Assembly: GCF_014650175.1 (NCBI RefSeq)
Contig: NZ_BMUL01000004.1
Coordinates: forward strand, 1 to 64,000
Direction: 5' to 3'
DNA: 64,000 nt
Source: Streptomyces termitum
Lineage (GTDB): Bacteria; Actinomycetota; Actinomycetes; Streptomycetales; Streptomycetaceae
Below the pieces are notes generated by a model that made no database searches, had not been told where the DNA came from, and saw nothing but the letters and a program-made list of their open reading frames with translations. Of the stretch, positions 44,948 to 62,989 are shown piece after piece. Within the stretch, counting starts at the first letter, position 1; each line of letters begins with the position of its first letter. A program made the position numbers and the translations under genes.

Positions 44948-46168
44948 TCAGGCGGGGCGGCCGCGGTTCATCGCCACCGCCGGGATGACCGTGAGGGCGA
45001 GGGCCCCGGCGGCCATGGCCAGGACCGGGTATCCGACCCCGCCCATCACCAGCCCGGAGGCCATGCCGCCGGTCGCGCCCGCCACGGACATCCCCACGTC
45101 CGCGAGACCCTGCACCGAGGCCCGGTTCTCGGCGGGCGCGGCGTCCGTGAGCAGGGCGGTGCCACCGAGCAGGGCCAGGTTCCAGCCGACTCCGAGCAGG
45201 ACCAGTGCGCAGGCCAGCGAGGGGGCGGAGGCCGGCGGGGCGAGGCCCGCGAGCAGACTCGCGCCCAGCAGGACGGCTCCGGCCGCGGTGGCGACCCACT
45301 GCCCGCCGATCCGGTCCGCGAGCAGGCCGCTCAGCGGTGACGGCAGGAACATGGCGCCCACGTGCAGGGCGATGACCAGACCCACCGCCTGTGTCGTGTG
45401 GCCGTGGCCCGCCATGTGGACGGGAGTCATGGTCATCACGGCGATCATCACGAGCTGCGCGGTGATCATCACGGCGGCGCCGGTGACGACGCCGGGGGCG
45501 GCGTACCCGGTACGGGCGGCCCCGGGCTTCCGGGGCGGGGCCGGGGGCGGCGGATCCGGGCGCGACCACACCACCAGGGTGAGCGCCGCGGCCACGTACG
45601 CGACCGCCGCCAGCAGGAAGGGCCCCGTCAGCCGCGGCAGACCCCAGGCGGCGGCGAGGTCGCCGGTGGGTCCGGTCAGGTTCGGGCCCACGACCGCTCC
45701 GAGGGTCATGGCGAACAGGACGGTTCCGGCGGCCCGGCCACGTCGTCCGGGCGGCGCGAGACCGGCGCCCGCGTAGCGCGCCAGGAGCCCGGTGACCGTA
45801 CCCGCCCCGTACACGAAGAGGGCCGTCAGGAGCAGGACGGGCGAGCGGGCCGCGGCTCCCGCGACCACGCCCACGCTGCCCAGCGCGGCGATGCCGTGGC
45901 CGAGCGCCAGTCCCGGACGGTGCCCGAAACGCTGACCGACGCGCCCGAGCCCCGCCGCTCCGAAGGCCGCGCCGGCGGTGTACAGCGCGGCCGGGACCCC
46001 GGCCAGACCGGTCGAGCCGAGCAGGTCCTGGGCGAGCAGCGCGCCGACCGTGATGCCGGCCGCCATGCCCAGGCCGCCGAGCGCCTGTGAGATGCCGAGC
46101 ACCGTCAGGGCGCGGCGCTGTCCGGGGGAGAAACCCGCCGCCGTGGCCGGGGGGATCGTGCGGGTCAC
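44948..46168 (-). CDS. MFS transporter
   Basis: 406 residues from GTG 46168, about twelve membrane helices, with the MFS motif A-like loop RVGQRFGHRPG after helix 2, a Pro-rich central loop RPDPPPPAPPRKPG between the halves, and GLLADRIGGQW in the second half. Likely exporter or small-molecule transporter; substrate unknown. The GTG overlaps the stop of an 18-codon upstream ORF that has the better ribosome binding site, so its translation is probably coupled to that ORF. In operon with the Baeyer-Villiger gene. Confidence 0.85.
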   Translation of the reverse strand: MTRTIPPATAAGFSPGQRRALTVLGISQALGGLGMAAGITVGALLAQDLLGSTGLAGVPAALYTAGAAFGAAGLGRVGQRFGHRPGLALGHGIAALGSVGVVAGAAARSPVLLLTALFVYGAGTVTGLLARYAGAGLAPPGRRGRAAGTVLFAMTLGAVVGPNLTGPTGDLAAAWGLPRLTGPFLLAAVAYVAAALTLVVWSRPDPPPPAPPRKPGAARTGYAAPGVVTGAAVMITAQLVMIAVMTMTPVHMAGHGHTTQAVGLVIALHVGAMFLPSPLSGLLADRIGGQWVATAAGAVLLGASLLAGLAPPASAPSLACALVLLGVGWNLALLGGTALLTDAAPAENRASVQGLADVGMSVAGATGGMASGLVMGGVGYPVLAMAAGALALTVIPAVAMNRGRPA

Positions 46169-46221
46169 GCGTGCTCCCGGGCGGCATGGCCCGAGGGGGC
46201 GCGGGTGGCGGGGGTGGGCAT
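46165..46221 (-). CDS. 18-residue leader peptide ORF coupled to the MFS gene
   Basis: ATG at 46221 is preceded by GAAGGAGCCCC, the strongest ribosome binding site in the vicinity. The ORF encodes MPTPATRAPSGHAAREHA and stops with TGA that overlaps the GTG start of the MFS gene (GTGA). It has no similarity I know of. The arrangement looks like a translational coupler or regulatory upstream ORF. Short length makes coding status uncertain. Confidence 0.5.
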   Translation of the reverse strand: MPTPATRAPSGHAAREHA

Positions 46222-46253
46222 GGGGCTCCTTCGGGGGCGTCGGGCGCGCGGCG

Positions 46254-46325
46254 GCCCGCACCGGTGGGGCCGGTGCGGGCGGGGCGGGCGGGAGCCGTCG
46301 GCGCGGGGGCGGCCGCGCCGACGGC
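46254..46325 (-). terminator. Two tandem hairpins between SulP and the MFS leader
   Basis: On the minus strand transcription from SulP meets a 12-bp stem (46314-46325 with 46294-46305) and then an 11-bp stem (46270-46280 with 46254-46264, 5-base loop). The second ends only 33 bases before the leader ORF start, so besides ending the SulP transcript it could act as an attenuator for the MFS gene. Confidence 0.65.
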
Positions 46326-46419: not shown

Positions 46420-47970
46420 TCAGGAGGTGGTTCCGCGCCGGCCGTCCGCGGTGCCGCCGCCCCGTGCGGCGGCGACGAGGGCGGTCTCGCGCGGTTCCGG
46501 GTCGGGCATGCCTCCGGGGTCCCGGAGGCCGGCGTCGTTCTGGGCGGTCCACGCGTCCAGGGCGGTCCGGCAGGCATGGTCCAGGTGGCGCAGCCGCGAG
46601 AGGTCGACCTCCACCGGCCGGTCCTTCGGCAGCGCCTCCAGGGTGTCGAGGATCAGCGGAAGGCGCAGGAAGGTCGCGTTGCCGCTGAGGGCGACCGTGG
46701 TGCGCCCGTCCCGCTCGCCGACGTCGAGACGGACGGCGGAGGTCTCCCACGCCGTCTTGAGGACGGCGGCCCCGATGCCGACCAGGACACCCATGAACAT
46801 GTCCGTGGCGATGATCGCCAGCCCGGTCGTGGCCAGCACCACCGCCTCGCCGCGGTGTTCGCGCCAGAGCGTCCCGAACATTTTGACCGGGACGAGCTTC
46901 GCACCGGCGTGGACGAGCACCCCGGCGAGCGCGGCCACGGGTATCAGGCCGAGGACGGCGGGGAACAGGGCGGCGAACAGCAGCAGCCACACTCCGTGCA
47001 GGATCCTGGACATCTTGGTACGGGCACCGGCCTGGACGTTGGCGGCGCTGCGCACGATGACGGCGGTCATGGGCAGCGCGCCGACGAGGCCGCACAGCGC
47101 GTTCCCCGCTCCCTGGGCGACGAGTTCCTTGTTGTAGTGGGTGCGCGGGCCGTCGTGCATCCGGTCCACGGCGGCGGCGCTGAAGAGGGATTCGGCGGAC
47201 GCGATGAGCGTGAAGGCGAGCACGACGCCCAGCAGCGAGGGATCCGCCAGCAGCCCGATGTCGTCCGGGCCCGTCAGATCGAGGGAGTCGACCAGGCCGC
47301 GGACCTCGATGGTGGCGACGGGCAGGTCCAGCACCGCCACCGCGACGGTGGCCAGACCCACGGCCACCAGCGGTCCGGGAAGCAGCCGGGGCAGGCGTCC
47401 GGGAAGCCGCTTCCACAGGACGAGCACGGCGATGCTCCCGGCGCCGATCGCGCAGGAGGACAGCGCCGGGGCCCCGGACACGCTCCTCGTGAGCAGTTCC
47501 GGAAGGCCGGCCAGGTTGGCGAGACCGTTTCCGTGCGCCTCGGCTCCCGCCAGGGCGTAGAGCTGGCTGCCGATCAGGACGAGGCCGATGCCGGCGAGCA
47601 TGCCGTGGACGACCGCGGTGGAGATGGCGCGGAACCACCGTCCGAAGCCGACGACACCGAGCAGGATCTGGAGGAGCCCCGTGGTCAGGACGAGGATTCC
47701 GAGCACACCGGTCCCGTGGCTGGTCACGGCCTCGTACACGAGGACCGTGAGCCCCGCGGCCGGGCCGCTGACCTGGAACGCGCTGCCCGGCAGCGCGCCG
47801 ACCAGCAGCCCGCCGACGATGCCCGTGACCAGGCCCAGTTCGGCGGGGACACCGGAGGCCACGGCGATGCCGACGCACAGGGGGACGGCGACGAGGAACA
47901 CCACGACCGAGGCGAGCAGGTCGCGGGAGAGGACGTCCGGCCGTAACCGGAGACGGGGAGAGGTCTTCAT
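46420..47970 (-). CDS. SulP-family anion transporter with STAS domain
   Basis: 516 residues from ATG 47970 (AGGAG upstream). About eleven to twelve membrane helices, starting LLASVVVFLVAVPLCVGIAVA, with SGPAAGLTVLVYE and AESLFSAAAVDRM, then a C-terminal STAS domain (about 415-500: ALSGNATFLRLPLILDTLEAL, DHACRTALDAW). It lies 72 bases downstream of a beta-carbonic anhydrase gene on the same strand; that pairing is typical of bicarbonate (BicA-like) SulP proteins, so HCO3- uptake or exchange is the best guess over sulfate. Confidence 0.88.
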   Translation of the reverse strand: MKTSPRLRLRPDVLSRDLLASVVVFLVAVPLCVGIAVASGVPAELGLVTGIVGGLLVGALPGSAFQVSGPAAGLTVLVYEAVTSHGTGVLGILVLTTGLLQILLGVVGFGRWFRAISTAVVHGMLAGIGLVLIGSQLYALAGAEAHGNGLANLAGLPELLTRSVSGAPALSSCAIGAGSIAVLVLWKRLPGRLPRLLPGPLVAVGLATVAVAVLDLPVATIEVRGLVDSLDLTGPDDIGLLADPSLLGVVLAFTLIASAESLFSAAAVDRMHDGPRTHYNKELVAQGAGNALCGLVGALPMTAVIVRSAANVQAGARTKMSRILHGVWLLLFAALFPAVLGLIPVAALAGVLVHAGAKLVPVKMFGTLWREHRGEAVVLATTGLAIIATDMFMGVLVGIGAAVLKTAWETSAVRLDVGERDGRTTVALSGNATFLRLPLILDTLEALPKDRPVEVDLSRLRHLDHACRTALDAWTAQNDAGLRDPGGMPDPEPRETALVAAARGGGTADGRRGTTS

Positions 47971-48042
47971 TGACTTCGGCTCCTGGGGGTGGGGGAGTGG
48001 CGGCCGGGGCGGCGGCGGGACCGCGCGCGTCGGCATCGCCGT

Positions 48043-48645
48043 CTACAGGGAGGAGAAGGCGCCCGTGGCGATCTGGTGGGCCCGGACGACGCCGGTGTGG
48101 ACCTCGTAGTACCAGGCGTGCAGGCCGAGCCGGCCCTCGCGGACGGCCCGGCTCACGCAGGGGTAGTCGCGGAGCCTCCGCATCTGCGCGACGACGTTGT
48201 GCTGCACGGGCAGCGCGACATCGGGGCCGGGGTCTTCGAGGCCGGGCCCGCCGTCCTCCGCGGGGATGGACCGGCTGAGCCAGTCGCGCACCGCGGGCAG
48301 GGTCCGCAGGTCCTCCCCCCGCGCGAGGGCTCCCACGGCGCCGCAGTGGGAGTGCCCGCAGAGGATGATGTCGGACACCTCCAGCACGGAGACCGCGTAC
48401 TCGATCGTCGCCATCTCGCTGGTGGCGTTCTCCGGGTCGTACGGGGGGACGATGTTGCCCGCGGTGCGCAGCTCGAACAGTTCGCCCGGTCCGACGCCGG
48501 TCAGCAGCGTCGGGACCACGCGGGAGTCGGAGCAGGTGATGAACATGGCGGAGGGGCGCTGGCCGTCGGCGAAGCCGTGGAGACCGGGTCCCTCTTCGCC
48601 GTATCGGTGAGGGAAGTCCCGGGCCTGGTCGATGAGGTGCAACAC
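48043..48645 (-). CDS. Beta-class carbonic anhydrase
   Basis: 200 residues from GTG 48645, fixed by AAGGAGG 8 bases upstream; longer in-frame versions add only Pro/Arg-rich sequence. Zinc ligands Cys38 and Asp40 in ITCSDSR, His98 and Cys101 in CGHSHCGAVG. Interconverts CO2 and bicarbonate in the cytoplasm. First gene of an operon with the SulP transporter; together they would link bicarbonate transport to hydration. A candidate DasR site lies about 257 bases upstream. Confidence 0.93.
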   Translation of the reverse strand: MLHLIDQARDFPHRYGEEGPGLHGFADGQRPSAMFITCSDSRVVPTLLTGVGPGELFELRTAGNIVPPYDPENATSEMATIEYAVSVLEVSDIILCGHSHCGAVGALARGEDLRTLPAVRDWLSRSIPAEDGGPGLEDPGPDVALPVQHNVVAQMRRLRDYPCVSRAVREGRLGLHAWYYEVHTGVVRAHQIATGAFSSL

Positions 48646-48901
48646 GGGAGTGTCCTCCTTGGGGGGGAGTGGTGCGTGGCTCGTCGTACCGGTGGCGGCT
48701 TCGGCCGGTGCGACAGGGCTCTCGGGGGTACGAGGTGGCACGGGTGCCGTGGGGAACGGCTGCGAGTCGTCGCGCGGGGGTGTCGTCGAGGTCGCCCGTG
48801 CCGGCTGTCGGTGCGGTGGCGCCCGGGTCCCGGAACGCCGCCGCGGCGGCCGAACGCGTCGCCTCACGGGCATCGCGTCGTCGGCGACCCGCAGGAACAC
48901 T

Positions 48902-49005: not shown

Positions 49006-49665
49006 TCAGACCTTGAGCCGGTAGCCGACCCCGCGCACGGTCTGGACGCGTTCGGCCCCGATCTTGCGCCGCAGGTAGCGGACGTAGACGTCGACGACGT
49101 TAGAGCCGGGATCGTAGTCGAATCCCCATACGTGGCTGAGCAGTTGCTCCCGCGAGAGCACCCGGTCGGGATTGCGCAGGAGGATCTCCGCCAGGGCGAA
49201 CTCGCGGGCGGACAGGTCGGTGACCCGGTCCCCCGCCCGGATCCGGCGGGTGCGGAGATCGAGGACCAGGTCCCCGACCCGCAGCAGGAAGGCGTCCAGC
49301 GGCTCCTCGCGGCGCAGCCGCAGCCGTACCCGCGCCAGGAGTTCGTCGAAGGCGAAGGGCTTGGACATGTAGTCGTCGGCCCCGCTCTCCAGCCCGCCCA
49401 CGACGTCGCTCACCGCGTCACGGGCGGTGAGGATGACGACGGGCAGGGTGACGCGCGCGTTCCGCAGCTTGCGCAGGACCGTGAGTCCGTCGTGGCCGGG
49501 CAGGCCGAGATCGAGGATCAGGAGGTCGAAGTCCCGGCCGCGCGCGAGCTCGTAGGCGGAGACGCCGTCGGCGACGACGTGGGTGACGTAGCCGTTACGG
49601 CTCAACCCTCTTTCGACGAAGGCGGCGATTCCTGCATCGTCCTCCGCTATCAGGATCCGGCTCAC
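49006..49665 (-). CDS. OmpR-family response regulator
   Basis: 219 residues from GTG 49665. Receiver: IAEDDAGIAAF, phospho-Asp in LLILDLGLPGHDG, Thr in VILTARD, Lys in YMSKPFAFDELLARV. Winged-helix effector: LSAREFALAEILLRNPDRVL, NVVDVYVRYLRRKIG, TVRGVGYRL. The start lies inside the kinase gene, which it overlaps by 71 bases; the order kinase then regulator is the reverse of most OmpR pairs. Confidence 0.92.
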   Translation of the reverse strand: MSRILIAEDDAGIAAFVERGLSRNGYVTHVVADGVSAYELARGRDFDLLILDLGLPGHDGLTVLRKLRNARVTLPVVILTARDAVSDVVGGLESGADDYMSKPFAFDELLARVRLRLRREEPLDAFLLRVGDLVLDLRTRRIRAGDRVTDLSAREFALAEILLRNPDRVLSREQLLSHVWGFDYDPGSNVVDVYVRYLRRKIGAERVQTVRGVGYRLKV

Positions 49666-51085
49666 CGTGGGTGTCCTCCGTCGTGGGGTGCAGTGCGGGA
49701 ATGTCGATGACGAAGCGCGCGCCGCCGCCGGGGGCGTCCTCGACGTGGGCGCCGCCGCCGTGGGCCTGGGCGATCTCGCGGACGAGCGCGAGCCCGATGC
49801 CGATGCCGGTGTCGGAACTCGCCGCGTCGGCCTGGTAGAAGCGGTGGAAGATCCGCTCGCGGTCCTCCGGGGCCACGCCCGGCCCGGTGTCGGCGACCCA
49901 CAGCACCACCCGGCCCCGCCGCAGGCGCGAACCGATCTCGATGGTGCCCTTCTCGGCCGTGTGGGCGACCGCGTTGGCGGCGAGCTGCATCAGTGCCTGG
50001 GTCAGCCGCTGGCCGTCCGCCCGCACGGTGGCGTCGGCGACTTCGGCGACCTTCCAGCGCCGCCGCCCCAGCCCCTGCGCGTTGGCCGCCACGTCGACCG
50101 CCAGATCGGTCAGCGAGGTCGGGCCGAGGGTGAGGAAGTCCGGGCGCTCGGCCCGTGCCAGGAGGAGGAGGTCGTCCACGATCCGGCGCATCCGGTCCAG
50201 TTCGCCGAGGAGCAGGATACGGGTCTGGCGGGACTCGCCGTCCCCGGCGGCGTCCATCAGCTCCAGGTGTCCGCGCACGACGGTGAGGGGCGTCCGCAGT
50301 TCGTGCGCCACCTCGTCCAGGAAACGGCGCTGCGAGGTGAAGGCCTGCGACAGCCGTTCGAGCATGTGGTTGAACGTCTCGGCGAGTCGTGCCACGTCGT
50401 CGTTGCCCCGCACGGGCAGCCGCTGCGTCAGGTCGGTCTCGCTGATCCGTTCCGCCGTCTGCCGGACCAGCCGGATCGGAGCCAGTACGCGGCCCGCCAC
50501 CAGCCAGCTCGCCGCGCCGGCGGCCAGCAGGGCGACGCCCCCCGAGGCCAGCAGGGTGCGCGCCATCTGCGACTCCCGGCTCAACTGCCGGTCCCGGAAG
50601 GCCACCAGGACGAGCCGGGTGTCGGCGCGGTCGCCCTCCACGCGCACCGGGACGACGCCGTAGCGGACGCGTCCCGCCGGGGTGTCCAGCCACCGGATGC
50701 CCGGGTCGGTCGCTTCCCTCGCCATGGCCACGACCTCGGGATCCCGGTCCAGACGGACCGGCACCGGGCCGGGGCTACGCCGGTCGGCGCGCCCGTCGAC
50801 GACGCTGAAGAAGGCCGTGTCATGGGCCGGGTGATGAACCGTCATGAACGCCGTGAGCAGCGCGGCCCCCGTGGCGAAGGGCTTTCCGGAACGCGGGTCG
50901 CGCGAGGTCCGGGCGAAGGCCCGCAGTTTGTCCGCCTCGGCGCGGAGCTGTACGTCGACCCGGCGGTCCAGCTCGGCCCGCCAGAGGACCGTGATCCCGA
51001 AGGTGGGCACGGTCAGGGTCGCGCTCAGCAGCACCATCATCCAGCCCACGATCCGGGACCGGGCACTGATCGACAGATTCGGCAT
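49595..51085 (-). CDS. Sensor histidine kinase
   Basis: 496 residues. Helix at residues 14-34, extracellular sensor of about 140 residues, second helix at about 180-205 (TLLASGGVALLAAGAASWLVAG), HAMP, HisKA with DEVAHELRTPLTVVRGHLE, HATPase with NAVAHTAEKGTI, DTGPGVAPEDRERIFHRFY and GIGIGLALVREIAQAHGG. ATG shares one base with the stop of the upstream small membrane protein gene (TGATG). The C-terminal 24 residues or so lie in the region shared with the regulator gene. Signal unknown; it is the nearest regulatory system to the peptide locus at 51.8 kb. Confidence 0.92.
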   Translation of the reverse strand: MPNLSISARSRIVGWMMVLLSATLTVPTFGITVLWRAELDRRVDVQLRAEADKLRAFARTSRDPRSGKPFATGAALLTAFMTVHHPAHDTAFFSVVDGRADRRSPGPVPVRLDRDPEVVAMAREATDPGIRWLDTPAGRVRYGVVPVRVEGDRADTRLVLVAFRDRQLSRESQMARTLLASGGVALLAAGAASWLVAGRVLAPIRLVRQTAERISETDLTQRLPVRGNDDVARLAETFNHMLERLSQAFTSQRRFLDEVAHELRTPLTVVRGHLELMDAAGDGESRQTRILLLGELDRMRRIVDDLLLLARAERPDFLTLGPTSLTDLAVDVAANAQGLGRRRWKVAEVADATVRADGQRLTQALMQLAANAVAHTAEKGTIEIGSRLRRGRVVLWVADTGPGVAPEDRERIFHRFYQADAASSDTGIGIGLALVREIAQAHGGGAHVEDAPGGGARFVIDIPALHPTTEDTHGEPDPDSGGRCRNRRLRRKRVEP

Positions 51086-51694: not shown

Positions 51695-51724
51695 TTGACA
51701 GTCCATCGATCACGCTCCTAAATT
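51695..51724 (+). promoter_or_regulatory. Consensus-like promoter for the GCIS-repeat peptide
   Basis: TTGACA (51695-51700), an 18-base spacer and TAAATT (51719-51724). The surrounding bases are conspicuously AT-rich for this genome. It would start transcription about 85 bases before the peptide ATG, the strongest vegetative-type promoter I can see in the window. Confidence 0.7.
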
Positions 51725-51815
51725 CACCGAGCGGATCGCCGGGAGCGAATCGCCAGGAAGTTCCTCCATGAACGGTCCGCCCGAAGTAAACCTTCCACGA
51801 GTATCGGAGATCACC

Positions 51816-51971
51816 ATGGAACAGCTCATCCGGAGGATGGCAGAGGACGACGTCTGGAAGAACTGGATGTCCGTCAACTCCGCTCAGGCGCAGGCGAAGG
51901 ACGGCTGCATCAGCGCGACGACCAAGAGCGGCTGCATCAGCGCGTCCCCGAAGGCCGGCTGCATCTCCTGA
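51816..51971 (+). CDS. GCIS-repeat precursor peptide (candidate RiPP)
   Basis: 51 residues from ATG 51816, with GGAG 7 bases upstream; an in-frame ATG at 51768 would add 16 residues but lacks this. Residues 1-27 are leader-like: amphipathic MEQLIRRMAEDDVWKNWM then a Gln/Ala linker. Residues 28-51 are three tandem units K-x-G-C-I-S, nine residues apart (Cys31, Cys40, Cys49; Ser33, Ser42, Ser51), the last ending exactly at the stop. At DNA level the repeat is 27 bp (51897-51923, 51924-51950, 51951-51971). It precedes an adenylating enzyme and a WH..HH protein. A multi-core modified peptide is the likeliest reading; no known RiPP class fits. Confidence 0.75.
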   Translation: MEQLIRRMAEDDVWKNWMSVNSAQAQAKDGCISATTKSGCISASPKAGCIS

Positions 51972-52102
51972 CGCCTCGGCAAGGGTGCCCGGGGCAAATG
52001 CGCGGGAGGTTTCCCCTGCCTGCCCCGATATGCTCCGGGCGCCCGGTCGCCGACCCCTTTGCCCCGTTCCGATTCGACCATGCGCAACATGAGAAGGAAT
52101 TA

Positions 52103-53344
52103 ATGAAAGGCCAGCCGACCGACGCGGTGATCCAGCATGTCCGCGACATACCCCTCTACCAGAAGGCGTTGGCCGAGGGGTACTTCCCCCTCCTGGAGAA
52201 GCCGGAGATCGCGCGGGGATTCCCCGACAACTGGATGACGCCCCGGCTCGCGGCGGCACTGGCCTCGGGCGAGGCGGAGTTCGTCCTGTCCACCGGGACC
52301 AACCACGCGCGCATGCAGATCATCCGGCCCCCCTACTTCCTGCTGCGCTCCTACTACGAGCTGTGGAGCGACCACCCCGACATCGCCGGGACGTGGTGGT
52401 CGGGCTGCCGCCGCGTCTCCCTGACCACGGTGCTCGCGACGGAGCACGTGGCGAGGGTCAACGCCGCCCGGCGGGGCGTCGAGCCCGACCCCGTACCCAC
52501 CCTCGACGACCGCCGGCTGGACGAGCGCACCTGCTACCTCAACCTCCGGCTCGACCCCGCGACATGGGACCGCGACGAGGTGCTGCGCATGCTCGGCGAG
52601 ATCGAACAGGCCCGGAGGGAACACCCCCAGGGGCTCTACCACCTCGACTGCTCCGGCTACCACCTGGCGCATCTGGTGCGGAAGGCCCTGGCCTGGAACC
52701 TGCGGGACGCCTTCCCCCCGCCCGCCAGCATCATCCACGCCTACGAGTACACCCCGGTGAACGTACGGCGCTACCTGCGCCGGCACTTCGACTGTCCCGT
52801 CATCGACCTCTTCGGCAGTACGGAACTGGGCTACCTGTACTTCAGCGACCGCGAGGGCCGGTACCGGCCGCACCTCGACGGGATGAGCGTCGAACTCCTC
52901 CCGGTGGCCGACGGAAGCACGATCCACGAACTCGTCGTGACCAGCGTCCGCAACCCCTACATGCCGCTGGTCCGCTACCGGACGGGGGACTGCGTGCGCA
53001 CGTCGGACGGCGAGCCGGACCCGGAGGGCATCGTCCAGTTCTGCGGCCGGGTGAAGGAATTGCTGGGCACGCCGCGGGGACCGGTCGCCCAGGGCGATCT
53101 CGACCGCCTCGTGGGCGACGCGTCCGACGCGGTCTTCGTCCACCGGCTCGACGTCCACGGCGGCGAGGAGGCCACCCTCCTGTACACGACGTTCACCGGC
53201 GAGCCCGTCGGAACCGGGGAATCGGAGACGCTGCGGCGGGGGCTCGAAGAACTGACCGGCCGGCGCTGCCGAATCGAGCACCGGAGCCACCTTCCCATCG
53301 GGCGGTCCGGGAAGTACGCCTGGCTCACCGCCGACGGAGCCTGA
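52103..53344 (+). CDS. PaaK/LuxE-like adenylate-forming enzyme
   Basis: 413 residues from ATG 52103 (GAAGGAATTA upstream; an ATG at 51998 has none). AMP-binding features: Ser/Thr-Gly phosphate loop STGTNHAR (63-70), FGSTELGYLYF (about 237), YRTGD (about 292-296), and a terminal lysine in RSGKYAW (about 405). Closest in style to phenylacetate-CoA ligases and LuxE acyl-protein synthetases, which activate a carboxylate as acyl-AMP and pass it to CoA or a protein cysteine. Beside the Cys-repeat peptide, it may acylate the peptide or activate its carboxyl end. Substrate unproven; residual doubt remains on subfamily. Confidence 0.8.
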   Translation: MKGQPTDAVIQHVRDIPLYQKALAEGYFPLLEKPEIARGFPDNWMTPRLAAALASGEAEFVLSTGTNHARMQIIRPPYFLLRSYYELWSDHPDIAGTWWSGCRRVSLTTVLATEHVARVNAARRGVEPDPVPTLDDRRLDERTCYLNLRLDPATWDRDEVLRMLGEIEQARREHPQGLYHLDCSGYHLAHLVRKALAWNLRDAFPPPASIIHAYEYTPVNVRRYLRRHFDCPVIDLFGSTELGYLYFSDREGRYRPHLDGMSVELLPVADGSTIHELVVTSVRNPYMPLVRYRTGDCVRTSDGEPDPEGIVQFCGRVKELLGTPRGPVAQGDLDRLVGDASDAVFVHRLDVHGGEEATLLYTTFTGEPVGTGESETLRRGLEELTGRRCRIEHRSHLPIGRSGKYAWLTADGA

Positions 53345-53406
53345 ACCCCACCGAAAGGCCCCCTCTCTCTTTTTCCGTCTTCCTCCTCCTCAAGAACCGG
53401 AGCGCC

Positions 53407-53922
53407 ATGACCAGCGGTCGAACCCTCTCCCCCCGCGACATGACAAGCCTTCTCGGGGAGACGCTGCACGCGGAGGTCGTACGGCATTTCACGGACGGGA
53501 AACGGGACGCCCCCGTGGAGTTCGTGGAGCGCCAGATAACCGAGTGCCTGCGCTACCTCTACCTCGTCTCGCGCCACCGGGAACAGCTCAGCGGGCTCTT
53601 CCTCCCGGTCGAGCAGGACATCGACGAGATATGGCACTACCTCATTCTTCAGACGCGCGAGTACCGCGCATTGTGCGAGGAACGCCTCCCCGGGAAATTC
53701 TTCATCCACCACCGGAGCATCGCCTACGAGGACTACCAGGAAGAACCGGGACGGGAACGGGCGCTGGAAGAGGCGCTGCGCTGGATACCCCTGTACTGCC
53801 GTGAATTCGGCCCCTTCGACGAGGGCGCGCTGCCCCATTGGACCATCGTGCGATTCCTGCACGAGGAGATGGGTCTTTCCCTCGCGGCCATCGCCGACCT
53901 GAAGCAGGCGGCCGAGGCGTGA
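53407..53922 (+). CDS. WH...HH core protein (GRDP/DUF1399-like)
   Basis: 171 residues, soluble. Central block DIDEIWHYLILQTREYRALC (71-90) followed by GKFFIHH (96-102) resembles the conserved core of glycine-rich-domain (DUF1399) proteins: Trp-His, then Thr-x-x-Tyr, Cys and a His-His pair, possibly a metal site. Rest is helical. Same direction as the peptide and ligase genes, 62 bases after the ligase stop. A related core occurs in the protein at 62990-63487. Role unknown; it may be a modifying, binding or immunity component. Confidence 0.7.
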   Translation: MTSGRTLSPRDMTSLLGETLHAEVVRHFTDGKRDAPVEFVERQITECLRYLYLVSRHREQLSGLFLPVEQDIDEIWHYLILQTREYRALCEERLPGKFFIHHRSIAYEDYQEEPGRERALEEALRWIPLYCREFGPFDEGALPHWTIVRFLHEEMGLSLAAIADLKQAAEA

Positions 53923-54931: not shown

Positions 54932-57900
54932 TCAGCCCGTCGTGCCGCGCACCAGCAGCTGCTTGCCCGCGAGTTCCGAGCGCAGGCGGGCCGCGGCCGG
55001 GGCCGGATCGGCCGCCAGGAGGCGTTCGGCTCCGGCGGCCTCGGCCAGGGCCGCCGCCGGATCGCCGTCGGCGGCGTACGCGTCGAACAGCGCGCTGGCC
55101 GCCCGGCCCTGCCACACCCGGCCGCCCTCGATCCCGCCGAACACCTCCCGGGCCGACGTCAGATGGGCGACGGCCGCGCCGGGCGCGCCGCCCTCCAGGG
55201 CCGCCCGGCCCAGGGCGAGCGAGACCCGCCCCTCCGCCGCCCGGTCGCCGGTGCGGCGGGCCAGTGCCAGGGCCTGGAGCAGCGCCCCCTCGGCCGCCTC
55301 GGCACGGCCCGCGCGCAGGTGCGTCAGGCCCAGGCCCAGCAGCGCGTGCGCCTCGCCGGTGCGGTCGCGGGCCGCACGGTCCATCCGCAGCGCCCAGTTG
55401 AACGCCTGACCGGCGAGCTCGCCCTCCCCGGTGCGCAGGTACAGGGCGCCCAGACCGCGCACCGTGTGCGCCTCGGCGCGCAGCGAGCCCGTCTCCCGGC
55501 TCAGCCCCAGCGCCCGGGTCAGCAACTCCCGCGCCTCGCCCGGCCCGTCCTCCTCCAGCCGCGCGGCGGCCTCCCCGACCAGGGCGAGCGCCTCGCCCGC
55601 CCGGTCGCCGGCCTCCCGCAGCAGGGCCGCGGCCGCGGCGTGCGCCCCGGCCGCGGCGGCGTGCTCGCCGCGCACGGCGCGGACCCGCGCGGAGAGCCAC
55701 CGCACGAGGGCCGTCCCGTGCCGGTCCCCGCACGCCCGGAAGCCCTCCCCGGCCCCGGCCAGCAGCGCTTCCGCCTCGGTGGCCCGGTGCCGGAACAGGT
55801 GCAGGGCGGCCAGGCTCGCGCGCGCCGCGGCGGCGCCCCGTACGTTCCCCGCCTTCTCGCAGGCGGCCAGGGCGAGTTCGGCGCACTCGCGCCAGTCCTC
55901 GGTGTGCGCGCGGGTCTCGAAGTGCCCGGCGCACGTCACCGCGAGGTCCCAGGCCGTCTCGTGCAGACCGTGCGCCGCGGCGCGTCGTACCGCCGCCACC
56001 AGCGCGTCGTGCTCCCGCTCCCACCACGGGCCGGGCGAGGCCGGCACCTCGTCCACCGCGCCGGCGGGCAGGGCGCGGTGCCGGGCGGCGGGCCCGCGCG
56101 GGACGAGGAAGTCCCCGCCGTGCTCGCGCCGGTGGGCCCGTGCGGCCAGCGACAGCCAGGTCTCCAGGACGCGCCGCAGCGCCTCCTCGGCCTCCCGCGG
56201 GTCCTCCGTCGCCAGCAGCCGCTCCCGGGCGAAGACGCGGATCAGGCCGTGGAAGCGGTAGCGGGCGGTGGTGCAGGCGCCGGTGACCGGGCCGTCGCCG
56301 CCGCCGTCCGGCACCAGGTCCAGGAGCTGGGAGTGGACCAGTTCCTCCAGCGCGTCCTCGGCCCCCGCCGGATCGGTGCCGAGCAGCACGGCCGCCGTCC
56401 AGCCGGGGAAGTCCGCCGTGTCCAGCAGCGTCAGCAGGCGCAGCAGCCGGGCCGGCTCCGGGTCCAGCGCCCGGTAGGCCAGCGTGATGTGGGAGCGCAG
56501 CTCCATCCCGCAGTACGAGAACTCGTCGAGCCGGCCCGCCTCGTCGCGGAAGCGCCGTACCAGCCGGTCGAGCGTCCAGTGCGGGCGGCACGCCAGCCGG
56601 GCCCCCACCACGCGCAGGGCCAGCGGCAGGCCGCCGCAGAACTCGGCCAGTTCCAGGGCGGCCGGGAGCTGGCCCGCGATCCGCTCGGCGCCCGCGATCC
56701 GGGTGAGCAGCTCCACCGAGTGCGCCTCGTCGAGGACGTCGAGCCGGATCTGCCGGATGCCGGACAGACCGGTGAGCGGGGAGCGGCCCGTGACGAGGAC
56801 CGCCGAGCAGGCGTCGCCCGGCAGGAGTTCGCGGACCGCGCCCTCGTCGGCCGCGTCGTCCAGGACGATCAGCACCCGCCGCCCCGCCAGCAGGCTCCGG
56901 TACAGGGCGCGGCGTTCGCCGGGGCCCTCGGGCACCGCGTGCGCGGGCACGCCGAGGGCGCGCAGGAACCCGGCCAGCACCCCGGAGGGGCCGCCCGTGC
57001 CGTCGCCGTCGCCCAGCGAGGCGTACAGGCGGCCGTCGGGGAACCGCTCGCGCAGCCGGTGCGCCGCGTGCACGGCCAGGCTCGACTTGCCGATGCCGTC
57101 CTTCCCGCAGATCCCCGCGATCCGCACCGGCTCGCCGACGGCGCCCGGACTCCCGTCCGGGCCGCCGAGGAACTCCACGAGCTCGGTCAGGTACGCGCCA
57201 CGGCCCGTGAAGTCCGGGAGATCCGAAGGCAGTTGCTCGGGCCGTACCGGGCCCGTGGGCGCGGCGGGCGCCACGGCGGTCCCGTCGCCGGACCGGGCGG
57301 CGGCGGGGGCCGGGGCCGCGTCGAGGGAGGGGTCCCGGTTCAGGACGGCCGCCTCCAGCTCCTGGAGGGCGCGGCCCGGCTCGATGCCCAGCTCGGCGGC
57401 GAACACGGCCCGCAGCCCGCGGTACACCTCCAGCGCCTCCGCCTGGCGGCCCGACCGGTACAGCGCCAGCATCAGGCTCGCGTGCACCCCCTCGCGCAGC
57501 GGCTCGGCCGCCGCCAGCGCGAACAGCTCGCCCGTGATCTCGGCGTGCCGGCCCGACGCGAGGTCCAGCCGGGCCAGCTCCTCCAGGGCTGTCAGCCGCT
57601 GCTCGTCGAGCAGGGTCGCCCCGCGGCGGACCGGATCGCTGTCCAGGCCCAGCAGGGCCGGCCCCCGCCACAGGGCGAGCGCCTCGCGCAGGCACCGCGC
57701 GGCCTCGGCGGGCTCGCCCCCGGCGGCGTGCGCGCGGGCCCGCGCGAGGAGCCCGGCGAAGCGGTCGGCGTCCAGCTCCCCGTCCGCCGTCCGCAGCCGG
57801 TAGCCCGCCGGGGTCGTCTCGATCGCGTCGGGCCGTCCGGCGCGCGCGCAGATCTTGCGCAGCGCGGAGACCGCCGACTGGACCTGGGTGCGCGCCGTCC

Positions 57901-58066
57901 CGGGCGGCGCGTCCCCCCAGATGGCGTCGACGAGGAGTTCCCGCGGCGTGACCCGGTTCGCGTGCAGGGCGAGCACCGCGAGGACGATCTGCTGGCGGGG
58001 ACCGCCGAGGGGGCGCGGCGCGCCGTCCCGGGTGAGTTCCAGCGGTCCCAGAAGGCCGATGTTCAT
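54932..58066 (-). CDS. AfsR/SARP-family transcriptional activator
   Basis: 1,044 residues from ATG 58066, preferred because GGGGGA lies 8 bases upstream; ATG 58081 would add five residues. OmpR-like DNA-binding domain (1-90, LLGPLELTRDGAPRPLGGPR), BTAD (about 95-240, RLTALEELARLDLASGRHAE), NB-ARC ATPase with Walker A GKDGIGKSS (about 320) and LIVLDDAADEGAVRELLPG, then TPR repeats (about 680-1,040). Large SARPs of this type activate antibiotic clusters and are often phosphorylated or ligand-gated through the NTPase part. Divergent from mbtH and the LAL regulator. Confidence 0.93.
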   Translation of the reverse strand: MNIGLLGPLELTRDGAPRPLGGPRQQIVLAVLALHANRVTPRELLVDAIWGDAPPGTARTQVQSAVSALRKICARAGRPDAIETTPAGYRLRTADGELDADRFAGLLARARAHAAGGEPAEAARCLREALALWRGPALLGLDSDPVRRGATLLDEQRLTALEELARLDLASGRHAEITGELFALAAAEPLREGVHASLMLALYRSGRQAEALEVYRGLRAVFAAELGIEPGRALQELEAAVLNRDPSLDAAPAPAAARSGDGTAVAPAAPTGPVRPEQLPSDLPDFTGRGAYLTELVEFLGGPDGSPGAVGEPVRIAGICGKDGIGKSSLAVHAAHRLRERFPDGRLYASLGDGDGTGGPSGVLAGFLRALGVPAHAVPEGPGERRALYRSLLAGRRVLIVLDDAADEGAVRELLPGDACSAVLVTGRSPLTGLSGIRQIRLDVLDEAHSVELLTRIAGAERIAGQLPAALELAEFCGGLPLALRVVGARLACRPHWTLDRLVRRFRDEAGRLDEFSYCGMELRSHITLAYRALDPEPARLLRLLTLLDTADFPGWTAAVLLGTDPAGAEDALEELVHSQLLDLVPDGGGDGPVTGACTTARYRFHGLIRVFARERLLATEDPREAEEALRRVLETWLSLAARAHRREHGGDFLVPRGPAARHRALPAGAVDEVPASPGPWWEREHDALVAAVRRAAAHGLHETAWDLAVTCAGHFETRAHTEDWRECAELALAACEKAGNVRGAAAARASLAALHLFRHRATEAEALLAGAGEGFRACGDRHGTALVRWLSARVRAVRGEHAAAAGAHAAAAALLREAGDRAGEALALVGEAAARLEEDGPGEARELLTRALGLSRETGSLRAEAHTVRGLGALYLRTGEGELAGQAFNWALRMDRAARDRTGEAHALLGLGLTHLRAGRAEAAEGALLQALALARRTGDRAAEGRVSLALGRAALEGGAPGAAVAHLTSAREVFGGIEGGRVWQGRAASALFDAYAADGDPAAALAEAAGAERLLAADPAPAAARLRSELAGKQLLVRGTTG

Positions 58067-58259
58067 CTGCGAATCCCCCATTCCCGGCCGCCCGTTGGTC
58101 CGGGGGCGGCCGCGGGCAGGCTACGGGCCGCCGGACCGGGGCGGCCAGGGAGTGCGGTGCGGGGTTCGCGATGCGTGGGATCGGCCCCGGCGATGGGCCC
58201 GGAGCCGGCCGCCGGGCGCCGCCCCGCGCACCCTCTCCGACATGGCCCGATCGGCTTCT

Positions 58260-58375: not shown

Positions 58376-58612
58376 GTGTTCCAGGACGACGACGAGGGCC
58401 TGTACGACGTCGTGATCAACGGCGAGGAGCAGTACTCGATCTGGCCCCGGCTCCGTGAGGTCCCGGCGGGCTGGACCGCCACCGGCTTCAGCGGCTCGAA
58501 GGAGGCGTGCGTCGCCCACGTGGACGAGGTCTGGACGGACATGCGGCCGCTGAGCCTGCGCCGGGCCATGGCGCAGGACGCCGAGGCCGCCACCGGAGCG
58601 GGGCCTCGGTGA
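58376..58612 (+). CDS. mbtH: MbtH-like protein
   Basis: 78 residues from GTG 58376 (GGAGG 7 bases upstream). Diagnostic MbtH sequence: NGEEQYSIWP, PAGWTATGFSGSKEAC, and WTDMRPLSLR with the invariant tryptophans. MbtH proteins bind NRPS adenylation domains and are needed for their folding or activity. No NRPS gene is in the window, so its partner lies elsewhere or beyond. The stop overlaps the LAL regulator start (GTGA). Confidence 0.93.
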   Translation: MFQDDDEGLYDVVINGEEQYSIWPRLREVPAGWTATGFSGSKEACVAHVDEVWTDMRPLSLRRAMAQDAEAATGAGPR

Positions 58613-61368
58613 CCACCGGCTCGACACGACCGCTGATCGGCCGCGAGCGGGAACTCGCGGCCGTCCGCGGGCGGTTCGCCGCCCTCGCGGACGGCCCGGC
58701 CCTCGTCGGCATCGCGGGGGAACCGGGCCTGGGCACCACGCGGCTGCTCGCCGAGATCGCCGCGTGGGCGGCCGGGGCGGGCGCCCGCGTCCACACCACG
58801 ACGCCCGAAGCCCTCCCCCGGACCCTCGCCGCCCTCCCGCCCGCCCGCGCCGCGTCCGCCGCGCCCGTCGTCGTGATCGTCGACGACGTGCACCGGTGCG
58901 ACGGGGCGGCGCGGCGGGCGCTGGCCGGGCTGCTTGAGGCGCCCGGGGACGGCACCCTGATCGTCCTCGGCTACCGGCCGCGCCAGTGCCCGCCCGGACT
59001 GCTCGCCGCGCTGACCGCGCCGCACCCGGGCCGTACCACCGAGCACCTCGACCTGGCCCCCCTGGACCGGGCCGGGGCCGAGGAGTTCGCCGGGGCCGGG
59101 CTGTGCGCCCGCCACCGGGCCGCCCTGCACCGGGACGGCGCCGGTGTCCCCCGGCTGCTCGCCCTGCTCGCCGCCGCCTGCGCGGGCCCCGGGACCTGCC
59201 CCGGCGACGCCCCCGGCAGCACCTCCTACCCGGCCCGCGCCGCCGCCCCCCTCCTCGCCGAGGTCGACGCCCTCGGCCCGCGGGCCCGTCTGGTCGCGCA
59301 CGCCGCCGCCGTCCTCGGCGAGCCCGCCGAGCCCGACGCGCTCGCCGCCGTCGCCGGACTCGACCGCGCCGCCGTCCTCGCCGCCGTCGACGAACTCCTC
59401 GCCGCGGACGTGCTGCGCGCCTGCGCGCTCCCCGGCCACGTCGAGTTCCGCCACCCCCTGCTGGGCCACCTCGTGCACAGCGCCGTCCCCGGCGGCTGGC
59501 GCCTCGCCGCCCACCGCCGCGCCCGTACGCACCACCGGGAGCTCGGCCGCCCCGCGCCGCGCGGCGCCCGCCACGCCGAGCAGTCCTGCCGGCCCGGGGA
59601 CGAGGACGGCGCGGCCGAACTCGCCGCCGCCGCCCGCCAGGCGCTCGCCTCCGACCCGGCCTCGGCGGCCGGCTGGTACACCGCCGCCGCCCGGCTGCTG
59701 CCCGCCGCCCCCGCCCACCGGGCCCGCCGCCGGGAGCTGCTCGCCTCGGCGGCCGACGCCGCCCTCCGCTGCGGCCGCGCCGACCTGGCGGGCACCGCCC
59801 TCGCCGCCCGCGAGCAGCTCCTCGACGCCGCCGAACGGGGCGCCGGAGCGGCGGACACCGCCGAACCGCGCGCCCGCCTCGCCGAACTCGCCGGGGACCT
59901 GCCGATGGCCCGAGAGATCCGCCGCGCGGCCCTCGACGAGCTCACCGCGCGCCCGGCCCCCGGCGGCCCCGACCCGCTGCGGACCGCCGCACTGCGGACC
60001 GCCCTCGCGGCCACGGCCGGCCCTGACCACGCGGAGCGGGCCGCCGCCTGGGCGGAGGAGGCCGTCCGCGCCGCCGCCGCGCACGGCGCCGGTGGAGCGC
60101 TCCACGCACACGCCCTCGCCGTCCGGGGCACCCTGCGGCTGGCCGCCGGAGAGGTCTCCGAAGCCCTGCGCGACGCCCGCGACGCGGCCGGGGCCGCCGA
60201 CGCCCTCCCCGACCACGCCGTCGCCCTGCGCCTCGACGCCCTCGACCACCTGGCCCGGCTGGAGACCGGACTGGAGCGGTACGGGCCCGCCGCCCGGCAC
60301 TTCACCCGGGGCCTCGACACCGCCCGCGCCACCGGCCAGTGGCCGGCCGCCACCGCGCTCGCCGCCGGACTGGCCGCCCTGCTGCTGCGCCAGGGCCGCT
60401 TCCCGCAGGCCGCCGCCCGCGCCGAAGAGGCCGTGCGCTGCTCCGAACTGGCGGGTGGTCAGGAGCCGCGCGCGCTGGCCCTGTGCGTGCGCGCCCGGGT
60501 CGCCCTGGAGGTCCACGCCCCGGAGACGGCCGTGGCGGTCGCCCGCGCCGCCTGCGCGCTGGCCGCCGCCGACGGCTTCTCCTGGTACCGCTCCCGGCTC
60601 GCGCTGGCCGCCGCCGAACTCGCCGCCGGGGACGCCCTCGGCAGCCTGGAGACCCTCGCCGGGGCGCCGCTGGCCGACCCGGCGACCGCGCCGCTGGACG
60701 CCGCCGGACGGCTCGCGCTCGCCGAGATCCTGTGCGGGGCCCGGCGCGCGGTGGGCCGTACCGACGCGGCCCGCGCCGCCGCAGGCCAGGCCCGCGCGCT
60801 CGCCGCGCGCACCGGGCTCGCCGGGCCGCGCGCCCGGGCGCTGCTGCTGGCCGCCACCGTCGCCGACGGGCCCGCCGAGGCGCTCGCCGCGGCCGAGGAG
60901 GCCCTGGTCTCCGCCGCCGCCCGCGGGCACGCCGCCGACGAGGGGCGGGCCCGGCTGGCGCTGGCCCGCGCCCGGCTGCGGCTCGGCGAGACCGAGCAGG
61001 CCGCCCGCCACCTGACGGCGGCCGGCCACGCGGCCGCCGCCTGCGGGGCGGCCCGGCTCGCCCGCGAGGTCGCCGCCGCCACCGAGGAGGCCGCCTCGGT
61101 GCGGGCCCCGGCCGAGGAGGCGCACATGCTCAGCCAGCGGGAGTACGAGATCTCCCAACTGGTCAGCCAGGGCTGCACGAACCGGCAGATCGCCCGCACC
61201 CTCGGGGTCAGCCACAAGACGGTGGAGACCCATCTCGGCCGCATCTTCGCCAAGCTGGAGATCTCGTCACGGGCGGAGATCGCCAACATGATCGGCCGCA
61301 ACACCCTGGTCGCCCGGCCCCGCACCCGCACCCGCCCCACCGAGCGGGCCCTCGTCGGGGCATCCTGA
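58609..61368 (+). CDS. Large LuxR-family (LAL) regulator with altered P-loop
   Basis: 919 residues from GTG 58609. N-terminal AAA-like ATPase, Ala-rich TPR-like middle, and C-terminal LuxR HTH (LSQREYEISQLVSQGCTNRQ, VSHKTVETHLGRIFAKL). Walker A reads GEPGLGTTR (residues 37-45): the invariant lysine is replaced by Thr43, whereas Walker B (VVVIVDDVH) is kept. ATP binding may therefore be lost or changed. LAL proteins are pathway-specific activators of antibiotic clusters. Coupled to mbtH. Confidence 0.9.
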   Translation: MTTGSTRPLIGRERELAAVRGRFAALADGPALVGIAGEPGLGTTRLLAEIAAWAAGAGARVHTTTPEALPRTLAALPPARAASAAPVVVIVDDVHRCDGAARRALAGLLEAPGDGTLIVLGYRPRQCPPGLLAALTAPHPGRTTEHLDLAPLDRAGAEEFAGAGLCARHRAALHRDGAGVPRLLALLAAACAGPGTCPGDAPGSTSYPARAAAPLLAEVDALGPRARLVAHAAAVLGEPAEPDALAAVAGLDRAAVLAAVDELLAADVLRACALPGHVEFRHPLLGHLVHSAVPGGWRLAAHRRARTHHRELGRPAPRGARHAEQSCRPGDEDGAAELAAAARQALASDPASAAGWYTAAARLLPAAPAHRARRRELLASAADAALRCGRADLAGTALAAREQLLDAAERGAGAADTAEPRARLAELAGDLPMAREIRRAALDELTARPAPGGPDPLRTAALRTALAATAGPDHAERAAAWAEEAVRAAAAHGAGGALHAHALAVRGTLRLAAGEVSEALRDARDAAGAADALPDHAVALRLDALDHLARLETGLERYGPAARHFTRGLDTARATGQWPAATALAAGLAALLLRQGRFPQAAARAEEAVRCSELAGGQEPRALALCVRARVALEVHAPETAVAVARAACALAAADGFSWYRSRLALAAAELAAGDALGSLETLAGAPLADPATAPLDAAGRLALAEILCGARRAVGRTDAARAAAGQARALAARTGLAGPRARALLLAATVADGPAEALAAAEEALVSAAARGHAADEGRARLALARARLRLGETEQAARHLTAAGHAAAACGAARLAREVAAATEEAASVRAPAEEAHMLSQREYEISQLVSQGCTNRQIARTLGVSHKTVETHLGRIFAKLEISSRAEIANMIGRNTLVARPRTRTRPTERALVGAS

Positions 61369-62696: not shown

Positions 62697-62960
62697 TCAG
62701 TCGTCGGTCGGGGGGACGATGAACCCCCTCGTCGGCCCCTGTCCCTTCCCCCGCTCGCCCGGGTGGATGCCGGAGGCGCGGACCGCTGCGGCGAGGGCTG
62801 CCAGTGCGTCAGCGGTGATGTCGGTACGCGTGGCCGGGTCGGCGGTGTCGTACACCTTCCACCGTCCCGCCGCGTTGTCCGGGTCGACAGGGGCGACGGT
62901 CCCGGGGATGCCGAACTCCCGCAGCACAGCGGCTACTTCTCGTGCCTGGTTCGCGTTCAC
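62697..62960 (-). CDS. Hypothetical protein
   Basis: 87 residues from GTG 62960 (AAAGGAAG 5 bases upstream). NANQAREVAAVLREFGIPGT then RWKVYDTADPATRTDITADA and a Gly/Pro-rich C-terminus. No known family; the style (short, alpha/beta, paired with other short genes) fits accessory-element genes. It follows the WH..HH protein gene with a 29-base gap, likely one transcript. Confidence 0.6.
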   Translation of the reverse strand: MNANQAREVAAVLREFGIPGTVAPVDPDNAAGRWKVYDTADPATRTDITADALAALAAAVRASGIHPGERGKGQGPTRGFIVPPTDD

Positions 62961-62989
62961 GCGCTTCCTTTCATCAGGGGGCGGACGGC

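Follow-up and report, generated by a model that had tools for sequence, protein, structure and literature searches.

The 64,000-nucleotide stretch of DNA analysed in the present work (the window: positions 1 to 64,000 of contig NZ_BMUL01000004.1 in assembly GCF_014650175.1 of Streptomyces termitum) contains a compact cassette of three genes which encode a short peptide carrying repeats of the motif GCIS, a PaaK-like adenylate-forming enzyme, and a small protein designated here WH..HH. The association of the three genes is a real locus rather than a product of chance, and the proposal of such a locus in an earlier reading made from the letters of the DNA (the sequence-only reading) is well supported. 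The interpretation favoured here, to which we assign about an even chance of being correct, is that the cassette resembles a multicore pathway for ribosomally synthesized and post-translationally modified peptides (RiPPs), in which a PaaK-type ligase acylates the repeat units of the peptide and a small product is exported. The features of the cassette are as follows.

51695-51724, forward strand: predicted promoter TTGACA-18-TAAATT of the peptide gene, from a sequence scan and the recurrence of TTGAC upstream
51816-51971, forward strand: repeat peptide, the proposed precursor, 51 amino acids, with leader (residues 1-27) and KxGCIS units (residues 28-33, 37-42 and 46-51)
51897-51914, forward strand: unit 1, KDGCIS
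51924-51941, forward strand: unit 2, KSGCIS
51951-51968, forward strand: unit 3, KAGCIS, which abuts the stop codon
51983-52044, forward strand: strong predicted RNA hairpin between the peptide and enzyme genes (centroid structure, z -1.98)
52103-53344, forward strand: PaaK-like adenylate-forming enzyme, 413 amino acids, from profile, fold and motif comparisons
53407-53922, forward strand: WH..HH partner protein, 171 amino acids, all-helical model

The peptide open reading frame (ORF), MEQLIRRMAEDDVWKNWMSVNSAQAQAKDGCISATTKSGCISASPKAGCIS, has cysteines at positions 31, 40 and 49, each within GCIS, and lysines at 28, 37 and 46, with the last unit placed directly at the stop codon; a GGAG resembling a ribosome-binding site ends six bases 5' of its ATG. 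The lengths of the enzyme and WH..HH are counted from chosen ATG codons, and the open frame of the enzyme begins further upstream. These features reproduce the description given in the sequence-only reading of a 51-residue frame with regularly placed GCIS cysteines that ends at the stop, preceded by the promoter and followed in the same direction by an adenylate-forming enzyme and a small conserved protein. Its statement that each GCIS comes after a lysine is correct in that a lysine precedes every cysteine, but the lysine lies three residues before the cysteine and is not adjacent to it.

The conservation of the cassette was determined in two samples. In a set of 293 genomes of the order, which includes the source genome, a close homologue of the enzyme (E 8e-95 or lower) occurs in 44 genomes (15%, the source genome among them), all of the window's genus, and four more genomes contain weak relatives. 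Strong matches in a profile search with WH..HH fall in the identical 44 genomes and adjoin the enzyme, and strong matches to the peptide profile lie immediately 5' of the enzyme in 43 of the 44; the peptide profile has six further, weak matches in this set (E 0.002-0.008). In the 44th genome (locus L077, genome G228) the enzyme match ends at residue 195 with an internal stop, the match to WH..HH begins only at residue 67, and no more than MEQLIKAGCIS is left of the peptide; all three genes are degraded, and the parts of the cassette decay together. A public genome collection yielded 128 relatives of the enzyme, the best 80 of which were read as named loci, with 48 not examined. The peptide lies immediately 5' of the enzyme in all 80 and WH..HH is present in 79, the exception (L163) being a locus that stops at a contig edge. 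A placement which recurs in every one of the 80 named loci and in all but one of the 44 genomes is not attributable to chance.

The carriers among the named loci comprise 77 Streptomyces, including S. griseus, S. globisporus, S. noursei and S. rimosus, the rest being Kitasatospora, Kutzneria and Paraburkholderia, and the cassette thereby occurs in two phyla. Within the family of Paraburkholderia, the Burkholderiaceae, the enzyme was found in 3 of 398 genomes, and all three loci (L177, L185 and L186) have both the peptide and WH..HH but differ in their neighbours. The G+C content of the L177 cassette is 0.56, compared with 0.61-0.62 in its flanks, which together with the differing neighbours of the three loci is consistent with horizontal transfer. 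A plasmid search returned just two distant matches (26% and 31% identity), and a viral search returned six stretches with the pattern and zero relatives. The weak enzyme relatives in the four additional genomes of the order (L078-L081, about 26-31% identity) have no such peptide upstream.

The peptides from the order set (43) and from the named loci (80) overlap, and the motif was therefore analyzed on 95 distinct sequences, a count that predates two further Burkholderiaceae peptides, one of which has two units that read GCVC, while the other has no lysine in its first unit. The 95 peptides hold 284 GC[IVL][SC] units, with three units in 84 peptides, two in 6 and four in 5, and two of the six two-unit peptides (L126 and L127) have a broken third unit. 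The expectation of the sequence-only reading that GC[IV]S repeats would recur beside homologues of the enzyme in varying copy number is thus borne out. Units are mostly spaced by 9 (152 cases) or 8 (28 cases) residues, with a range of 7-14 and a single spacing of 17 across a broken unit. A lysine occurs three residues before the cysteine in 282 of the 284 units; since this distance is fixed while the linkers vary in length, the lysine looks like part of the recognised motif. Cysteines outside the units are lacking in all 95 peptides, the single extra cysteine being that of GCIC, and the variants GCIC and GCVC show that the serine position can be occupied by cysteine, so that a nucleophile is kept. 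The peptides end in GCIS in 89 cases, GCISR in 3, GCVS in 2 and a degenerate sequence in 1.

Purifying selection acts on the GCIS motif. In 35 of 81 peptides (595 pairs), the ratio of nonsynonymous to synonymous differences (pN/pS) is 0.010 in GCIS (pS 0.407), 0.196 in KxGCIS, 0.28 in the linkers and 0.48 in the leader; these peptides were picked for a length of 51 and cysteines at 31, 40 and 49, so that the constancy of the cysteines is built into the sample but that of the glycine, isoleucine and serine is not. In the leader, L4, I5, W14, W17, N21 and S22 are invariant across the 43 aligned peptides of the order set. The pattern of pN/pS and the conservation of the leader indicate that the peptide is very probably translated and that selection bears above all on the motif. 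Two general features of a RiPP precursor are present: leader and core differ in constraint, and a short gene-encoded peptide adjoins candidate modifying enzymes in 80 of 80 loci and 43 of 44 genomes. The peptide also gave sub-threshold matches to the unrelated families SicP (E 0.0021, 17.8 bits, where the cut-off is 99), TusD (E 0.087) and, in Pfam, Ldi (E 0.07), which were taken as chance. In a 183-residue open frame elsewhere in the order set (G278:C12:94341-94517, reverse strand), the section of the peptide profile that covers the repeats is matched weakly at two neighbouring sites (E 0.002-0.004).

The expression signals of the peptide gene are likewise shared. TTGACA-18-TAAATT is the sole promoter-like site between 51600 and 54300, where 0.1 is expected from shuffles; 76 of 81 loci have a TTGAC in the 180 bp upstream, compared with about 10 expected under mononucleotide shuffling, and inspection by eye finds a TTTAC-type -10 region in most loci, often with TTGG in the spacer. 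In the 75 loci with 50-200 bases between the peptide and enzyme genes, the intergenic sequence folds more strongly than its shuffles (mean z -2.74, with 64 loci below -1 and 50 below -2). At least 12 hairpin pairs can be formed in 78 of 78 loci; the evidence from this count is weak because the DNA is rich in G+C, and the z-scores serve as the control. An intrinsic terminator was considered and rejected: only 11 of 78 loci have a 12-base tail with at least four T, and the element is therefore called a hairpin. Its position would suit the production of more precursor than enzyme.

The enzyme is predicted to adopt the PaaK fold. The top match of its model (pLDDT 91.9) is the phenylacetate-CoA ligase PaaK1 (VIA Z 24.0 over 350 residues, 3.6 A; Foldseek E 1.1e-17), and the model also matches ClxA (VIA Z 22.1) and NatL2 (6six; VIA Z 20.9). 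An alignment of 55 sequences chosen from 77 shows no variation at T240, D296 and K404, the first two of which align with ClxA T222 and D281. The signature elements of the ANL superfamily are a P-loop-like STGT, GSTE, RYxxGD and a C-terminal GK, and the enzyme contains the motifs of this superfamily and of PaaK: in 123 overlapping sequences, regular expressions find LSTGT[NT]HARM in 106, GSTELGY in 122, RYR.GD in 118, GR.KE in 115 and GxSGK[YF]AW in 97, with one locus (L108) failing every expression, probably through a frame that was not recovered. ClxA T222 and D281 are described as contacts to phosphate and ribose (PMC12519233), and NatL2 and ClxA as passing acyl-AMP straight to a hydroxyl or amine without CoA (PMC7204872, PMC12519233).

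Profile comparisons did not assign the enzyme to a Pfam or NCBIfam family. The NCBIfam DVU_1553 ligase model matches it at E 8.5e-11, below the cut-off of that model, and the NCBIfam equivalog for phenylacetate-CoA ligase gives 13.5 bits against a cut-off of 646.3. The sequence-only reading had called the enzyme LuxE/PaaK-like; the PaaK half of this assignment stands on the predicted fold, while a LuxE profile match was not listed at E<=10, which is weak evidence, since no ANL profile and no Pfam family was listed either. None of the peptide, the enzyme and WH..HH reaches a cut-off in Pfam or NCBIfam 20.0. The class-defining enzymes of lanthipeptides, YcaO, radical SAM, ThiF-type, graspetide and lasso pathways are all unmatched by profile in the enzyme and WH..HH, in agreement with the earlier statement that no lanthipeptide, YcaO, radical SAM or ThiF-type enzyme is present; a PqqD-like RiPP recognition element (RRE) also has no Pfam or NCBIfam match in either protein, although diverged elements can be missed. 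At one of the loci with a weak relative (L080, 9004-11858, forward strand), the distant enzyme (29%) directly precedes genes judged by eye to be cysteine-desulfurase-like and thioesterase-like, with no convincing repeat peptide.

WH..HH is modelled as an all-helical protein (pLDDT 86), and its residues D73, E74, W76, H77, C90 and H102, which are invariant in 54 sequences chosen from 78, would suit a metal site. A search for solved relatives found none that is clear: the best Foldseek match has E 1.4 and the best VIA match has Z 3.2 among 140 chains, a result that establishes neither novelty of the fold nor a difference from known ones. A profile search of PDB sequences gave Hax3 as its sole match (E 0.00036), in which no stretch passes alone and which was taken as chance. 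A resemblance to GRDP/DUF1399-like proteins was considered; no such Pfam match was obtained for WH..HH, for three relatives from other loci, or for a second copy in the window.

Outside the cassette, the following genes of the window lie on its reverse strand and bear on its possible role.

44948-46261, reverse strand: major facilitator superfamily (MFS) transporter, probable exporter, with a homologue no more than 7 kb away in 59 of 80 loci
46420-48036, reverse strand: auxiliary anion transporter of the SulP family, present in 46 of 80 loci
48043-48900, reverse strand: auxiliary beta-carbonic anhydrase (Pro_CA), present in 48 of 80 loci
49006-51085, reverse strand: response regulator (49006-49665) and histidine kinase (49595-51085), near the cassette in only 12 of 80 loci and outside the core

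Neighbours were counted up to 7 kb on each side of the cassette, or less where a contig ends, and were placed on a quick tree of the enzyme with 77 rows, consisting of the window, whose labels were assigned by hand from gene positions, and the 76 of 80 named enzymes with lengths of 390-450 amino acids (L108, L157, L170 and L171 were excluded by length); 23 of its 74 inner branches are open. The MFS gene lies downstream on the cassette strand in 55 of the 77 rows. Among 61 relatives, 5 of the 7 genomes that have the enzyme and 4 of the 54 that do not (4 of 30 in the same genus) contain an MFS protein of at least 55% identity. In the Burkholderiaceae, L177 and L186 have after WH..HH an MFS transporter of the DHA2/EmrB type for which tblastn (E<=1e-5) finds no match to the Streptomyces transporter, and L185 has in this place a shorter frame, MFS-like as judged by eye and possibly broken. 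That another MFS type occupies the same place suggests independent recruitment of the transporters, and no other observation hints as clearly at export.

The SulP transporter and the carbonic anhydrase occur in several arrangements relative to the cassette (four for SulP), and SulP shows at least 15 state changes on the quick tree. Chance would seldom place it within 7 kb, a span of about 14 kb in 8 Mb for each copy. SulP is missing from the flank read in 29 of the 77 rows, with five further rows not judgeable, and the three Burkholderiaceae loci keep the peptide, enzyme and WH..HH with no homologue of SulP or carbonic anhydrase in the stretch read. A core role for the pair was rejected on these grounds, and both genes are taken as auxiliary. 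The histidine kinase and response regulator, along with a HypX-like neighbour named by eye (13 of 80 loci), were set aside as local synteny. In the neighbour clusters, which were judged by eye only for RiPP-class enzymes over about 9 kb around the cassette, no enzyme of a known class was noticed among the conserved neighbours. The link to MFS transporters, the SulP and carbonic anhydrase pair and the spread to the Burkholderiaceae all go beyond what the sequence-only reading had described. Large regulators also lie beside the cassette in the window, namely a BTAD/NB-ARC (SARP-like) protein at 54932-58081 (reverse strand) and a LuxR-family (GerE) protein that also has an AAA region at 58507-61368 (forward strand).

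The architecture of the locus, in which a leader-bearing repeat peptide with variable numbers of units is associated with a promoter, a hairpin, an enzyme, a constant partner and often an exporter, resembles that of a multicore RiPP pathway. Under the favoured interpretation, residues 1-27 of the peptide would be a leader that docks the enzymes, and the PaaK-type enzyme would activate a carboxylic acid, aryl or acyl by analogy with its family, as acyl-AMP. The peptide would be the substrate, and the most likely modification would be acylation of a side chain in each K-x-G-C-[IV]-[S/C] unit, with the cysteine thiol accepting the acyl group first and the group possibly shifting to the lysine at -3 or the Ser/Cys at +2. 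The fixed distance between lysine and cysteine makes a transfer from cysteine to lysine attractive, although a few units have no lysine. WH..HH would be a constant accessory that binds the peptide or a metal, a host protease would free the short units, and the MFS transporter would export the product, which the use of an MFS rather than an ABC exporter suggests is small; SulP and the carbonic anhydrase would have an auxiliary function in Streptomyces. We consider only tentatively, and as a claim that is rather less probable than its converse, that the cassette defines a new RiPP class, in which the ligase and its WH..HH partner would attach an acid to every unit, and the resulting acylated oligopeptide would be exported by MFS pumps recruited independently in the Actinobacteria and the Burkholderiaceae.

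Several observations weigh against this interpretation. The units are broken in two peptides (GYIS in L126 and a final GRAS in L127), and the lysine is missing from a few units, including the first unit in L177 and G900. A homologue of the window's MFS transporter is lacking from the flank read in 15 of the 77 tree loci, two of which (Kutzneria L166, and L136) show no long ORF with multiple transmembrane segments. Inspection by eye found no acid-making gene among the conserved neighbours, and a protease, an RRE or PqqD-like domain and a known RiPP enzyme are unmatched in the cassette proteins, the flanks, apart from the named window genes, not having been profile-searched for them. The enzyme itself falls below every NCBIfam cut-off and has no Pfam match at E<=10, in a search from which HMMER filters remove weak hits. 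Since PaaK enzymes usually serve CoA, the acceptor of the acyl group could be CoA rather than the peptide.

The alternatives differ mainly in what they make of the cysteines and of the neighbouring genes. The peptide might be a carrier whose cysteines hold acyl groups as thioesters, in the manner of a small acyl carrier with several sites, during the assembly of a small molecule that is afterwards released and exported, without the peptide entering the product. The co-occurrence of an enzyme that forms acyl-AMP with a conserved cysteine, the several equivalent sites on each peptide, and the fact that MFS exporters usually carry small molecules all agree with such a role, but neighbour clustering gave no further ever-present enzyme that could build on a thioester, and the conserved lysine and Ser/Cys would be left unexplained, so that we regard a carrier function as unlikely. 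The same cysteines could instead form C-x-[S/C] sites that bind a metal or a thiol, with the enzyme and WH..HH maturing or loading the peptide. While this would account for the GCVC and GCIC variants, for the invariance of D73, H77, C90 and H102 in WH..HH and for the Cys-rich tails of some WH..HH relatives, it requires neither an adenylate-forming enzyme nor an MFS exporter and does not explain the lysine at -3, and no metal-dependent regulator was noticed among the neighbours, which were viewed by eye and not searched by profile; a binding peptide is accordingly judged distinctly improbable.

If the cassette regulated or served the SulP transporter and carbonic anhydrase in bicarbonate or anion physiology, and made no natural product, then the frequency of these genes at the loci, the four arrangements of SulP and its repeated state changes would follow naturally. 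The rows of the tree that lack SulP in the flank, the three Burkholderiaceae loci that retain the cassette without either gene in the stretch read, and the occurrence of SulP homologues in 36 of 37 genomes of the genus regardless of the cassette make this a very doubtful explanation. The possibility that the peptide is a chance ORF beside an ordinary CoA ligase, which could be suspected of any short frame in high-G+C DNA where open frames are common, is hardly credible, being in effect refuted by the conservation in all 80 named loci and in two phyla and opposed by the constancy of the motif and the pN/pS of GCIS. Among variants of the chemistry, the sequence-only reading had suggested ligation through the carboxyl end; this is disfavoured, because the internal units have the same motif as the last one and three distinct peptides end in GCISR. 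A role in anti-phage defence was rejected when PADLOC returned no family at E<=0.01 for the three cassette proteins.

Known systems share parts of the cassette. The stand-alone PaaK-like ligases NatL2, ClxA and AjiA1 have a fold in common with the model of the enzyme (VIA Z 19.9-22.1, 401-437 residues), and ClxA also has the threonine and aspartate of the nucleotide site, yet the three are only about 14-21% identical to the enzyme, which, unlike NatL2 and ClxA, is tied to a ribosomal peptide and a WH..HH protein. AjiA1 has a role with a small aromatic acid in a benzoxazole pathway. NatL2 and ClxA are described as acting on such acids in benzoxazole pathways (PMC7204872, PMC12519233). PaaK1 is the best structural match but has 13% identity to the enzyme, and it differs in that no phenylacetate gene was noticed by eye among the conserved neighbours of the cassette. 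The precursors of multicore RiPPs such as cyanobactins, plant burpitides and multi-core graspetides combine a conserved leader with a short motif repeated in variable copies, and their gene precedes that of the enzyme. The cassette peptide is similar in its leader, its short repeats, its variable copies and the location of its gene 5' of the enzyme, but the cassette proteins, unlike those pathways, have no match to ATP-grasp, protease or macrocyclase, YcaO, lanthionine, radical SAM or ThiF-type enzymes. PEARL-type scaffold peptides offer another comparison, since in both cases a ribosomal peptide may be a support for chemistry; the cassette proteins differ in having no LanB-like match, and the repeats are internal and bound to a motif, with no C-terminal extension.

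We know of no RiPP class with such an acyl-adenylate ligase as its core enzyme. A search of open-licence full text found no paper with the motif strings, an earlier description elsewhere being possible, and the open-licence literature yielded no paper that joins PaaK with RiPP precursors, or RiPPs with an acyl-CoA ligase, acylation and lysine. The cassette is compact and co-inherited, occurs in 15% of the genomes sampled from the order and in another phylum, and yet its three proteins fall short of every Pfam and NCBIfam cut-off. If the favoured interpretation is correct, the locus would represent a new peptide chemistry, a small ORF with K-x-G-C-[IV]-[S/C] repeats would provide a rule for genome mining, and the exported products would be ones that current miners would be expected to miss.

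The WH..HH family extends beyond the cassette, with two intermediate and many weak matches bringing the total at E<=0.001 to 93 of the 293 genomes; many Streptomyces carry such weak relatives. Five distant relatives (L093-L097) have only two peptide matches, both at chance level (E 0.07 and 0.41) and neither convincing. Cysteine-containing tails occur in the relatives at L084, L095, L096 and L097 and in a second WH..HH-family protein in the window itself (62990-63484, reverse strand), whose Cys-rich tail, GGCGPINPGNCASHC, is followed by a small ORF at 62697-62966 (reverse strand). A similar pair of a WH..HH protein and a small ORF is found in L095 (8319-8804 and 8034-8282, reverse strand), and at L084 (1501-1719, forward strand, and downstream) a WH..HH protein has a long tail rich in glycine and cysteine, GSCGGGCGSGGGCGSSCGGGC. 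The last of these raises the possibility that the WH..HH domain may go more widely with Cys-rich peptides. At L093 (1557-2027), a WH..HH homologue with 36% identity lies in an apparent biosynthetic cluster whose genes, judged by eye, include an ATP-grasp, an aminotransferase, an ABC transporter and a dioxygenase-like protein.

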